A stretch of DNA of 64,000 nucleotides from positions 62,001 through 126,000 of the forward strand of contig JAKAOG010000004.1 of NCBI GenBank assembly GCA_021823325.1, in the 5' to 3' direction. A program made the position numbers and the translations under genes. The notes under the pieces were generated by a model, which ran no database searches, had not been told where the DNA came from, and was given only the letters and a program-made list of their open reading frames with translations. Source of the DNA: an archaeon. Lineage in GTDB: Archaea; Thermoproteota; Nitrososphaeria; Nitrososphaerales; Gagatemarchaeaceae. This document shows positions 58,449-64,000 of this stretch, piece by piece. Numbering within the stretch: the stretch's first letter is position 1; every line of letters starts with the position of its first letter.

Positions 58449-58566
58449 GCCGGCTGCTCGGGATGGCGCAAATAAAGCCTAAAATCTGGGAAATCGTCGA
58501 CCGCACCGACGATGAGGTGAACGTAAGCGCGGCGTAGAGCCGCGTACAGGGGTAGACACGTTCGCC
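58449..58566. other. Junction between core chromosome and the integrated element
   Basis: Holds the CoA-transferase promoter, a 7-bp inverted repeat ATCGTCG/CGACGAT (58493-58513) and a strong 6-bp hairpin CGCGGC-GTAGA-GCCGCG (58528-58544). From about 58516 the reading frame and codon usage of the recombinase begin. The repeats are candidate recombinase-binding or attachment-site sequences; no tRNA gene is detectable here. Confidence 0.4.
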
Positions 58567-59682
58567 ATTAAGCCAACAAGACACAGATTTACTCAGGAAC
58601 AACTAGCCAAGGGCAGACAACGAGGGAACATCACCCGTTGGGGAGCGAACCAACTGCTAAACCCCATTCTAAGAGACGACCCAGCAATCAAGCGTTATCT
58701 GTCCCATATTGCTGCGAGAAGAGGGAACGCAGGAAAGGTATCGAGAACAAGTCAGATAGTCTCGTGCTCTGCGCCAAGAGCGTTCCTCGAATATCTCGGA
58801 CTCCCCATAGAATCGGACTCGGTAACGAGACTGATAGAACGAACTCGTGCAGAACATAGAGCCGACAACTACCAGACAGACGAGCAACCACTGGCGTTCG
58901 CCCTGATCCCACCGAGCAAAGGGAGATACAACAAAGCAGCGACGCTAAAGGGGATTTTCAAAGCCAGTCACTGCCCGCTAACAGTCTCCCTTCCTACGCC
59001 AGAACCCACAGAGCGAACGAAGAAGATTAGCCCAGAAGTGCTGAAGGCGATCTATCAAGCCCTGCCTCGGGACGAACTCCGAGCAATAATCGACTTCCAA
59101 GCATACGCAGGAGAGCGAGTAGCGGCCCTATGCTCACTGACCCCAGTGTCCGACTGGACGGACCACAGGAAGTACACTTTCATCCACATAGCCAGCCAGA
59201 ACACCAAAGCGCGTTACGCCCATATCAGCATCATACCGAGACCACTAGCCGACTACCTACGGGCCTATGCGAAAGCCCTCGGAAGAACGTCGCCCTTCCC
59301 GAACTTCGAAACCCAATGGCGCGAGATAAGACAACTCGGAATGAGCCAATTCGGGATCAGACTAACCTCACACTACCTACGGAAGCGGTTCGCGACAATA
59401 GCCAGCAAGACAGCAATGCCAGTAAACTCGTGGGACTACCTCATGGGAGACAAACCAAGCCTCGGACACCACGCGGAAGCCTACGCACTAGAGGACTATT
59501 CCGGCCTCGCAGAAGAATACGACCGATACCTAGCGCCCTACCTCAGCATATCAGACATCCACGAACCGGACGCACCAAAGGAAGCAAACAAAGACGTGGA
59601 CGCACTTCTCGAAACCATCAAGACGCTTCAGGAAACAATCAACCTCCTCAAAACACAACTGGCAGAGGCACGAGCACACTAA
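58567..59682 (+). CDS. Tyrosine recombinase/integrase, frame lacks a standard start
   Basis: The frame is open from 58516 to 59682 (about 388 codons) and reads as protein throughout, for instance KPTRHRFTQEQLAKGRQRGN and GRYNKAATLKGIFKASHCPL. No ATG, GTG or TTG occurs before the GTG at 59038, which would remove the whole DNA-binding domain; ATT at 58567 is the best unconventional choice. The catalytic domain has Arg in YAGERVAALCSL, Lys region TKARYAHISIIP, HxxR in SHYLRKRFATIA, GH in SLGHHAEAY and Tyr in the C-terminal EYDRYLAPYL. A coiled coil ends the protein. Possibly a C-terminal int fragment left by integration. Confidence 0.75.
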   Translation: MKPTRHRFTQEQLAKGRQRGNITRWGANQLLNPILRDDPAIKRYLSHIAARRGNAGKVSRTSQIVSCSAPRAFLEYLGLPIESDSVTRLIERTRAEHRADNYQTDEQPLAFALIPPSKGRYNKAATLKGIFKASHCPLTVSLPTPEPTERTKKISPEVLKAIYQALPRDELRAIIDFQAYAGERVAALCSLTPVSDWTDHRKYTFIHIASQNTKARYAHISIIPRPLADYLRAYAKALGRTSPFPNFETQWREIRQLGMSQFGIRLTSHYLRKRFATIASKTAMPVNSWDYLMGDKPSLGHHAEAYALEDYSGLAEEYDRYLAPYLSISDIHEPDAPKEANKDVDALLETIKTLQETINLLKTQLAEARAH

Positions 59683-59821
59683 GCCCGCGCTTCTGCTTTC
59701 ACTATTTTTGGTCAGACTGGGACGGCGTTATCTTCATCTGGTTTCCGCTTCGTCGCGAGGTCATCATCCCACTCAACCTCCGCCTTAGTCCTTTATAATC
59801 AGCCCGCCAATGGTTCTCCCT
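59683..59821. promoter_or_regulatory. Gap with T-run and TATA box of the DUF5343-HEPN unit
   Basis: A short T-run (CTATTTTTGG, about 59701-59710) may end the integrase transcript. CTTTATAATC (59791-59800) is a strong TATA box about 26 bases before the ATG at 59822, so the DUF5343-HEPN pair seems to have its own promoter and a leaderless message. Confidence 0.55.
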
Positions 59822-60430
59822 ATGGCTGAAAACCCGCCGTACGTCATGGCATACGGAAAACTCTCGTCCCTTTTTGCAAAGATCATAGAGGCATCACCTC
59901 CACCCAAATTCAACCGCGACTTTGTTAACACCGTCTTGGGGTTCAAGTCTTCTAGTGACCAAGCGTATCCCCCTTTCCTGAAACGCTTGGGGTTCATCGA
60001 CGACGCAAACGTTCCAACTCAAGACTACAAGGATTACCGAGAAGGGGGGACCCTCGCCAAAACAATCATGGCGAAAAGAATCCGAGCATCTTATCCCACA
60101 ATATTTCAAGCGAAGGAATACGCCTGGCGACTGAACAAGCAAGAACTAACTGCAACGGTAAAACGCGTCCATGGCCTAGCAGATGAGTCGCAAGCGCTTG
60201 AAGCTATCGTTGGTACCTTTTCCGCACTTTGTGGTCTGGCCGACTTTGAGGCCGAACCAACGAAGAAAGAGGCAAAAGTCAAAGAACCTGAGGAACCAAA
60301 GGAGGCCGCAAGCAGTCCGGCCCGACTTGGATTATCCTATACAGTAGTCCTAAACCTTCCCGCTACCACCGACATTGAAGTCTTCAACGCGATATTCAAG
60401 AGCCTCAAAGAGAACATCTTGAATGAGTAA
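59822..60430 (+). CDS. DUF5343 family protein, HEPN partner
   Basis: 202 residues. It shows the DUF5343 pattern YVMAYGKLSSLFAKIIEASP, FVNTVLGFKSSSDQAYPPFL, KRLGFIDDANVPTQDYKDYR (about residues 6-70) and a helix-rich middle (FSALCGLADFEA). A charged linker (Lys/Glu/Pro, about 138-165) leads to a C-terminal segment LSYTVVLNLPATTDIEVFNA. The winged-helix-like N-terminus suggests nucleic-acid binding. Its stop overlaps the start of the HEPN gene by 8 bases. An ATG at 59810 is an alternative start. The biochemical role is unknown. Confidence 0.8.
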   Translation: MAENPPYVMAYGKLSSLFAKIIEASPPPKFNRDFVNTVLGFKSSSDQAYPPFLKRLGFIDDANVPTQDYKDYREGGTLAKTIMAKRIRASYPTIFQAKEYAWRLNKQELTATVKRVHGLADESQALEAIVGTFSALCGLADFEAEPTKKEAKVKEPEEPKEAASSPARLGLSYTVVLNLPATTDIEVFNAIFKSLKENILNE

Positions 60431-61007
60431 TCAAGAGATCCTGAACCGCCTGAAGTTGTTCGGGATGAACAACCTTACGCTCGAAAAGGAGCTTCTCAAG
60501 CTCGAAAAGTCGGGAATAAACATCGGCCGCTCCACTTCAATCAAGAGCGAAGAGGTTGTTGATACAGACCTATTCGAATCGGAACTCCTTGCAAGAGGTC
60601 AGAAGATGGCTGACTTCTACGTACTGTACTATTGCATCGAAAACACTATTCGGGCGTTAATCTTGGAACGAATGGTCGAAAAACATGGAGCCACATGGTG
60701 GGATACGAAGGTGCCAACGAAGGTCAAAGATGAAGTGAGAGATCGCCAAGAAAGGGAGAAAGACACGCCGATGGCAATCAGATCAACTGACCCACTTGCC
60801 TACACGACTTTTGGAGAATTAATTGTCATATTGGACGCCAACTGGACCGACTTTGCGGACACCATTCGAAGCCAGAAGGCCATGCAAAAGATACTATCTG
60901 AGCTCAACTCCCTTAGAGGAGTCGTAGCCCACAGCGCAGATCTCAGCGACGACGACATCGACAGATTCAAACTCCTAATCAGAGACTGGCTTAGAATACA
61001 GACTTGA
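60423..61007 (+). CDS. Swt1-like HEPN domain protein (putative RNase)
   Basis: 194 residues. The C-terminal two-thirds match the Swt1-type HEPN domain: YYCIENTIRALILERMVEKH, then a loop with GATWWDTKVPTKVKDEVRDR, and SLRGVVAHSADLSDDDIDRF. The catalytic R-x4-H motif is RGVVAH (R165, H170), although the usual polar residue after Arg is Gly here. HEPN RNases act in toxin-antitoxin and antiviral systems. The 8-base overlap with DUF5343 marks an operon of two proteins likely made in step. Confidence 0.82.
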   Translation: MSNQEILNRLKLFGMNNLTLEKELLKLEKSGINIGRSTSIKSEEVVDTDLFESELLARGQKMADFYVLYYCIENTIRALILERMVEKHGATWWDTKVPTKVKDEVRDRQEREKDTPMAIRSTDPLAYTTFGELIVILDANWTDFADTIRSQKAMQKILSELNSLRGVVAHSADLSDDDIDRFKLLIRDWLRIQT

Positions 61008-61184
61008 CTTTTCGGCCTAGCGACCGAACTTGTTGCGCCGAGCGTAAGCTGGCGCGCCGTGCTTCGCCCGGCGCTCCCCTGCTGGGGACACATCGTAAGG
61101 ATGTTTTCCCAAGCCCTTTCAGAACCCCTCCTCGGACCCGACAAACGAGACACGCAAGGCTTAAGCCACGTGTTTGGTAGAGCC
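61008..61184. promoter_or_regulatory. Gap with promoter of the HNH gene
   Basis: GC-rich first half without a recognised gene; CTTAAG (61160-61165) about 25 bases before the ATG at 61185 is the likely TATA-type element of a leaderless HNH mRNA. Confidence 0.4.
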
Positions 61185-61721
61185 ATGAACCAGCAAACAT
61201 TGTTCTCTGACGAAGAAAGGAGGACAAAGCCGACCGCCGCACTGAAGCGCCTTGTCTACAGTCGGGACAAGGGCATCTGTAGGCTCTGCAATGAAAAAGT
61301 AGACCCATTCGACTTCGACATTGGCCACAATACGGCCTTCGCTAGAGGAGGGAAGCTCAATTTCAAGAACGCCATACTCCTGCATCCGAAATGCAACAGG
61401 TCGATGCAGAAGCTGAATCTGAAACAGGCAAGAGAGGCGCTGGGGATGCCAGAGTCCCAAGAGGAAACCAGCAAGCGCATCCTGAAGACTTTGGGCACGA
61501 ATCAACTAAAGAGACTCGCCAAGGACAATTTCATCAAACTGAAACCCAAAGTGGAAAAGGGATGGTTCTCAAACGATGTCGTCCAACCATCAAAACTGCA
61601 ATATGTGAACGCGCTTGCGAAGGTGCTAAACCCCGAACAAATCAAGACCAAGCTCGCCTCCTCACCAAAACCTCAGAAGAGAAGACGCGCGCCCAAGAAG
61701 AAGAGCTTCTGGTCATTCTAG
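61185..61721 (+). CDS. HNH endonuclease family protein
   Basis: 178 residues from the ATG at 61185; a longer frame to 61059 is unlikely because it crosses the promoter. HNH core: LVYSRDKGICRLCNEK (C32, C35), FDFDIGHNTAFARGGKLNFK (D45, H48), NAILLHPKCNRSMQKLN (H67, C70). This CxxC/HPxC arrangement is a zinc-stabilised HNH fold like those of the HNH/McrA type. The C-terminal half is helical with a strongly basic tail (KPQKRRRAPKKKSF), suited to DNA binding. Its position after the HEPN pair suggests a defence role. Confidence 0.82.
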   Translation: MNQQTLFSDEERRTKPTAALKRLVYSRDKGICRLCNEKVDPFDFDIGHNTAFARGGKLNFKNAILLHPKCNRSMQKLNLKQAREALGMPESQEETSKRILKTLGTNQLKRLAKDNFIKLKPKVEKGWFSNDVVQPSKLQYVNALAKVLNPEQIKTKLASSPKPQKRRRAPKKKSFWSF

Positions 61722-63659: not shown

Positions 63660-63673
63660 GTAATACGTATTAC
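63660..63673. repeat. 14-bp perfect palindrome
   Basis: GTAATACGTATTAC lies between two convergent genes (stops at 63613 and 63688), so it is not a promoter operator for either. It may be a protein-binding site, a terminator element or part of an attachment site. Confidence 0.5.
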
Positions 63674-63687
63674 AAACCCCGTCCCAG

Positions 63688-64000
63688 TCAGGGAGAGACC
63701 TTAGACAAAAGCCAAGTATACAGATCAGTCTTAAGCGTGCGGTTCCGCGGATTCTCGAAAATTATGAGAGGCCCGTCTTTTCCCTTGAGTTGGATGTGCA
63801 TTCTGGTGTATGGGTCGAAGAACGAGAGTTTCTTGACCATCAACACTTGAGCCATGTCGGCATATCTGAAGACAGCACTATCGTTTCTTCCCGTAAGCTC
63901 AGCGTGGTCGTCGTAGAAAAGACCTCTATTTACTGAGTGGAACCTAGGACGGATGAAAAGGACGAAGAAATACCCTGTGAGGACCACAAACCAAGCTAAG
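63688..64000 (-). CDS. Membrane-anchored PH-like protein, 5' part outside the window
   Basis: The frame enters from the right edge; 103 residues are visible. A hydrophobic segment (LAWFVVLTGYFFVLFI) is followed by an all-beta-like region (RGLFYDDHAELTGRNDSAVF, VLMVKKLSFFDPYTRMHIQL) resembling bacterial PH-domain membrane proteins. A GTG at 63987 could be a start, but the upstream codons also look coding. The function is unknown. Confidence 0.5.
   Translation of the reverse strand, partial: LAWFVVLTGYFFVLFIRPRFHSVNRGLFYDDHAELTGRNDSAVFRYADMAQVLMVKKLSFFDPYTRMHIQLKGKDGPLIIFENPRNRTLKTDLYTWLLSKVSP

Follow-up and report, generated by a model that had tools for sequence, protein, structure and literature searches.

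The DUF5343 gene and the Swt1-type HEPN gene carried by the window (the whole stretch of 64,000 nt that was analysed, which comes from a 0.92-Mb archaeal MAG) form a pair that is, by its match to both protein models, a member of the already catalogued candidate defence system PDC-M34. Among the relatives of this pair the same DUF5343 precedes different nucleases, so that it resembles a fixed controller to which one nuclease effector or another can be attached. The DUF5343 protein matches the PADLOC-DB 2.0.0 model PDC-M34A (PDLC04589, E-value = 2.8e-49, residues 4-198 of 201), the HEPN protein matches PDC-M34B (PDLC04592, E-value = 2.1e-45, residues 8-191 of 194), and the two genes are adjacent on the same strand. 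The window copy agrees with PDC-M34 in both protein models, in gene order and in adjacency, and differs in sitting on an archaeal integrated element. The sequence-only reading knew of no described mechanism for such a pair; our literature search likewise found no paper naming PDC-M34 or DUF5343 and none on the mechanism of PDC-M34 or on experiments with it, but the pair itself is not undescribed, as both proteins match the PDC-M34 models. PDCs stem from a guilt-by-embedding screen and most of them await validation (PMC12988326).

Both genes are read on the forward strand. The first (59822..60430) encodes a 202 aa protein with the Pfam domain PF17278 (E-value = 5.6e-41), and its start is placed at the ATG at 59822 rather than at 59810, a choice favoured by the homologous N-termini (..ENPPYV) and by the distance to the TATA-like box. 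The second (60423..61007) encodes a 194 aa protein, the predicted RNase effector, which harbors the HEPN_Swt1 domain (PF18731, E-value = 5.7e-14). The stop of DUF5343 and the start of the HEPN gene share 8 bp (ATGAGTAA, 60423..60430), exactly the overlap that had been read beforehand, and the same overlap recurs in the homologous loci L037, L038 and L045. The strong TATA box claimed for the pair corresponds to a TATA-like TTTATAA at 59792-59798 (forward strand), ~28 bp 5' of the ATG; the string has two copies in the 64-kb window vs 0.5 expected, and the transcript is predicted to be nearly leaderless. DUF5343 consists of a predicted helical N-domain followed, in alignments, by an acidic variable linker and a conserved C-terminal tail (..LNLPATTDIEVFNAIFKSLKENIL). 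A second MAG, Thaumarchaeota archaeon clean525, is 99.96% identical over 12 kb, and since the two are near-identical they are not treated as independent.

DUF5343 is a rare protein, detected in 2 of 300 genomes of a phylum sample, in 4 of 257 genomes of another class and in 8 of 400 genomes of its own class. Searches of PLSDB plasmids (tblastn) and INPHARED phages yielded no DUF5343 homologues, and a scan of genome contigs returned only the near-identical MAG. Conserved adjacency elsewhere, a check proposed by the sequence-only reading, was found: the ordered DUF5343-Swt1 HEPN pair occurs at seven independent loci including the window, in one of which (G787) the contig ends within DUF5343, and the six others are four archaeal loci and two phage contigs. 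The genes overlap by 8 bp in G711 and G830 and by 1 bp in G734, while the phage contigs of IMG/VR have a 1-bp overlap (UViG_3300044737_000123) and an 8-bp overlap (UViG_3300001199_000129), the latter pair adjoining the genes of the large and small terminase subunits; spacing within pairs is 8-bp, 1-bp or near-zero. A near-copy of the G830 locus in G781 has a frameshifted HEPN gene, and on contig C3 of G781 a decayed DUF5343 is adjoined by a decayed HEPN. A model search of 400 genomes of the class placed every standalone M34B-type HEPN of ~190 aa directly 3' of DUF5343; the longer Swt1-HEPN proteins that were looked at (270-402 aa) do not directly follow it. One of the long proteins, of 270 aa in G509 (L070 1495-2307), combines an N-terminus that is winged-helix-like by eye with a Swt1 HEPN domain (RNVVAH) and may be a single-gene equivalent of the pair. 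Weakly DUF5343-like proteins of 340 aa are encoded in G826 and G737 (E-values = 2e-7 and 3e-4), which belong to another family of the order; their genes (L041 2111-3130 and L042 9125-10129) adjoin topoisomerase-like and NUDIX-like genes with no effector gene, and we excluded both as distant chromosomal homologues that lack an effector.

At four archaeal loci the gene directly 3' of DUF5343 is not a Swt1-HEPN. The partner in G374 and G357 is a DpnII/MboI-type nuclease (PF18742, E-values = 1.4e-46 and 2.7e-54) with conserved D, E and K of the PD-(D/E)xK site, and both partners resemble the short-Argonaute-associated AgaN (PADLOC Aga_Helical-REase, E-value = 1e-27; PDB 23wq, E-value = 1.3e-4). 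There the two genes overlap by 50-62 bases (L022 9126-9175, L023 10024-10085), and the conserved tail is read in two frames. The partner in G271 and G526 is a protein of ~175 aa with the motif RNQCAH or RNECAH and with no Pfam or PADLOC family match; from this motif we infer a HEPN protein, as AbiF of C. difficile has RNQCAH for its RNase motif and loses toxicity when R and H are mutated (PMC12373285). Homology between the Swt1-HEPN and this other HEPN-like partner was not detectable (hhalign). The M34B models match the Swt1-type partner only and miss both the DpnII/MboI-type and the other HEPN-like partners. A tree of ten DUF5343 proteins places the Swt1-partnered ones in one clade (98/95), with the HEPN-like and DpnII/MboI-type partners interleaved on the other side, the topology that a role of DUF5343 as common controller would predict. 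Apart from the distant G826 and G737, every intact DUF5343 locus with downstream sequence has a nuclease-type second gene. These loci raise the possibility, to which we give slightly less than even odds, that DUF5343 is the hub of an unrecognised two-gene immune family, with swappable nucleases (Swt1 HEPN RNases, AbiF-motif HEPN-like RNases and DpnII/MboI-type DNases related to short-Argonaute effectors), with archaeal integrating elements and bacterial phages as its vehicles. If so, PDC-M34 would be one branch only, and detection rules that require M34B would miss the others.

Other defence genes lie near four of the eight well-covered archaeal DUF5343 loci, a raw count with no background rate that makes enrichment suggestive only. 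A type I R-M set adjoins the pair in G711 (HsdR by comparison; HsdM and HsdS by eye) and type I R-M is located within 3-9 kb in G271; in G526 a type IIG R-M enzyme and PDC-S18 follow immediately downstream, and in G830 a Cas1 gene (L038 7190-8422, E-value = 4e-60) is established beside the pair. Integrases were found near five of the eight loci (the window, G271, G374, G357 and, by eye, G734). Proteins with an H-x-H motif (HFHVLGF/HVHILGF) are also encoded near DUF5343 and an integrase (L036 10076-11110, L022 7098-8003); they look like rolling-circle replication proteins, with no Pfam or PHROG match. The HNH nuclease gene of the window (61185..61721, forward strand; PF01844, E-value = 1.4e-4) is separated from the HEPN gene by a 177-bp gap. 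It had been read as following the pair under its own promoter and as part of the unit: the gene is there, but its proposed promoter is a weak TTAAG-like match only, and membership was rejected, as 44 of the 46 family genomes lack the gene, its other carrier is the near-identical G537 only, and it is regarded as neighbouring cargo because no other DUF5343 locus has it. An RNA antitoxin in the gap or nearby found no support either, with no significant RNA fold in the 177 bp (z = -1.7) and no Rfam match to an ncRNA in the 14 kb around the HEPN gene. The earlier proposal of an antiviral or toxin-antitoxin unit on mobile DNA was consequently kept in part: adjacency, mobile location and the listing by PADLOC as a defence candidate stood, while membership of HNH, an effect of the active-site glycine (see below) and the undescribed status of the pair did not.

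The reading that we prefer, with a probability of roughly 55%, is a defence role in which DUF5343 would restrain the HEPN RNase until infection and then permit abortive infection. We infer this control, along with the binding behind it, its trigger, the RNase activity and the resulting protection; the sequence-only reading had already proposed sensing or restraint of the HEPN by DUF5343, and effector swapping strengthens this proposal. DUF5343 is taken as the controller and HEPN as the effector because of the controller-first overlap, the exclusive pairing of the Swt1 branch, the unrelated nucleases on the same DUF5343 and the linker-plus-tail shape, a variable linker with a conserved C-terminal tail being common in tail-neutralising antitoxins (PMC10440598). 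DUF5343 would be made first, from the same message and by overlapping translation, and would bind the HEPN protein, probably via the conserved tail that follows the flexible acidic linker, thereby keeping it inactive. Its helical, possibly winged-helix, N-domain would detect a competing virus or plasmid, directly or indirectly, upon which the HEPN effector would be released or activated, cleave RNA with the Arg and His of its Rx4H motif, and stop growth or kill the cell.

That motif is R165-GVVA-H170 (RGVVAH, residues 165-170, 60915..60932, forward strand), and it is conserved in the homologues. The glycine after the Arg had been suspected of altering activity, but this position varies naturally, being G in the window, A in G711, S in G830, I in both G734 and G787, and G and N in the two UViGs, so that a phage homologue shares the Gly; loss of HEPN activity through this residue was rejected as a candidate, since Gly is normal family variation. 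R165, H170 and the upstream N162 are invariant in the aligned archaeal and phage homologues (33-54% identity), an observation that also weighs against a catalytically inactive HEPN, with the pair serving the element as an RNA-binding or regulatory complex that controls replication or copy number. Some Swt1 HEPN domains are indeed inactive (PMC3710099), yet we consider such a role very improbable here. Sequence similarity of the HEPN protein to PDB chains was not detectable. Its AF2 model is all-helical and of low confidence (pLDDT 65.5), and the top PDB match by Foldseek is the HEPN RNase PbAbiF (8vz6), with a probability of 0.87 but an E-value of 0.7. DUF5343 had no match in the PDB by sequence or fold; its AF2 model is weak (pLDDT 61, from an alignment of three sequences), and the Foldseek result for its fold was discarded as meaningless for that reason.

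An ordinary type II toxin-antitoxin addiction unit of the mobile element would account for much of the same anatomy. DUF5343 would then be a promiscuous antitoxin like Panacea or HTH antitoxins, which does not sense infection, and any antiviral effect would be incidental. The antitoxin-first order, the overlapping genes, the carriage on small elements and phages and the swapping among unrelated nucleases all agree with this explanation, and both partner swapping and antitoxins built of an HTH plus a tail are typical of type II systems (PMC10440598). We nevertheless hold it to be unlikely, given that defence genes (R-M, PDC-S18, Cas1) adjoin two Swt1 loci and half of the four non-Swt1 loci and that the pair figures among the defence candidates of PADLOC, although these points are not decisive because TA and Abi overlap. 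More doubtful still is DUF5343 as an activating or targeting subunit that would identify the nucleic acid of an invader and then recruit or activate the attached nuclease, as in short Argonautes. The alternation of RNase-type and DNase-type effectors on one DUF5343 lineage would suit such a subunit, as would the resemblance of the DpnII/MboI-type effectors to AgaN and the SPARDA nuclease, which is described as target-activated and collateral (PMC12205087); however, DUF5343 is without a demonstrated nucleic-acid-binding domain, and the gene order and overlap suit an inhibitor equally.

Comparison with known systems places the pair beside several of them. The Abi2/AbiD/AbiF HEPN RNases are alike in Rx4H and supply the best fold match (PbAbiF, with the E-value of 0.7 given above), and AbiF-type proteins are carried by prophages. 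The RNQCAH of AbiF of C. difficile is identical to the string in the swapped HEPN-like partner of G271, whereas the control of AbiF involves a repeated ncRNA antitoxin and the window pair has a protein partner, DUF5343, with no ncRNA found by Rfam. HEPN-MNT (PDC-M05) is similarly a two-gene unit of a small HEPN and a protein partner, but of different families, since the partner in the window is DUF5343 and not a nucleotidyltransferase. SPARDA and short Argonautes with AgaN share the arrangement of a constant partner with swappable effectors, and the effectors of G374 and G357 are AgaN-related; they differ in that no Argonaute gene is present in the DUF5343 loci that were read and in that the window effector is a HEPN. 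By analogy, Panacea-type antitoxins may be alike in that a single protein partners toxic effectors of unrelated kinds. What exceeds the sequence-only reading is the exchange of effectors around DUF5343 and the distribution of this protein over archaeal elements and phage contigs, and a DUF5343 that stays fixed while RNase- and DNase-type effectors change indicates where sensing or control has to lie. Carried by an archaeal mobile element and, on a phage contig, adjoining terminase genes, the pair may serve in conflicts among mobile elements. Since archaeal antiviral systems have been little characterised (PMC12988326), a pair common to archaea and phages is useful; PDC-M34 is named but mechanistically blank, the window locus and its relatives offer a testable handle on it, and both proteins, short (about 200 aa each) and well-bounded, suit work on toxicity, binding and structure.

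The placement of the pair on an integrated element was borne out by a precise empty site in relatives. In six relatives of the genus, homology breaks off at 58523 or slightly before it and is picked up again at 64368 (window frame), which bounds the element at 58524-64367 (5844 bp), its right end lying beyond the end of the window in L020. With the attachment cores at its two ends it spans L020 2518-8373; a CoA-transferase gene and the proteasome-beta region flank it, and it has a G+C content of about 48-57% vs about 61% in its surroundings. The attachment core TGAACG is a direct repeat, with its left copy at 58518..58523 and its right copy at 64368-64373 (window frame, L020). The insertion splits a conserved sequence of ~75 nt with TGATGA and CTGA boxes, which resembles a gene for a C/D-box small RNA and has no Rfam match; a tRNA as integration site was rejected, as ARAGORN found none. 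The integrase that had been noticed beside the pair is represented by its catalytic part at 59038-59682. This belongs to Int(C), the C-terminal part of a tyrosine integrase (58525..59682, forward strand; PHROG integrase, E-value = 9.2e-10; PF00589, E-value = 3.9e-4), whose frame stays open for 385 codons counted from the left junction but lacks any start codon upstream of 59038. Int(N), a piece of 35 codons with its ATG at 64270, is located at the right end (64270-64373, window frame, L020) and joins Int(C) in frame. The integrase gene was apparently split by integration, which is the anatomy of the 'suicidal' SSV-type integrase (PMC8371274), seen here in a Thaumarchaeota-type genome; the attachment site appears to lie inside int, which is divided between the two ends as in SSV-type integrative elements. 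Membership in the SSV/pTN3/pT26-2 integrase superfamily (PF16795) is not claimed, as the matches are to PF00589 and PHROG_1 only; PF16795 was not matched in a Pfam scan that covered the 59038-59682 part only. Inside the element, copies of the right attachment sequence TATTAnGAACgCCGTCCCAGTC also occur at 63668-63698 and, in the window frame of L020, at 64236 and 64363, with an inverted copy at 59715-59729, which suggests that integration took place at this site repeatedly or in layers.
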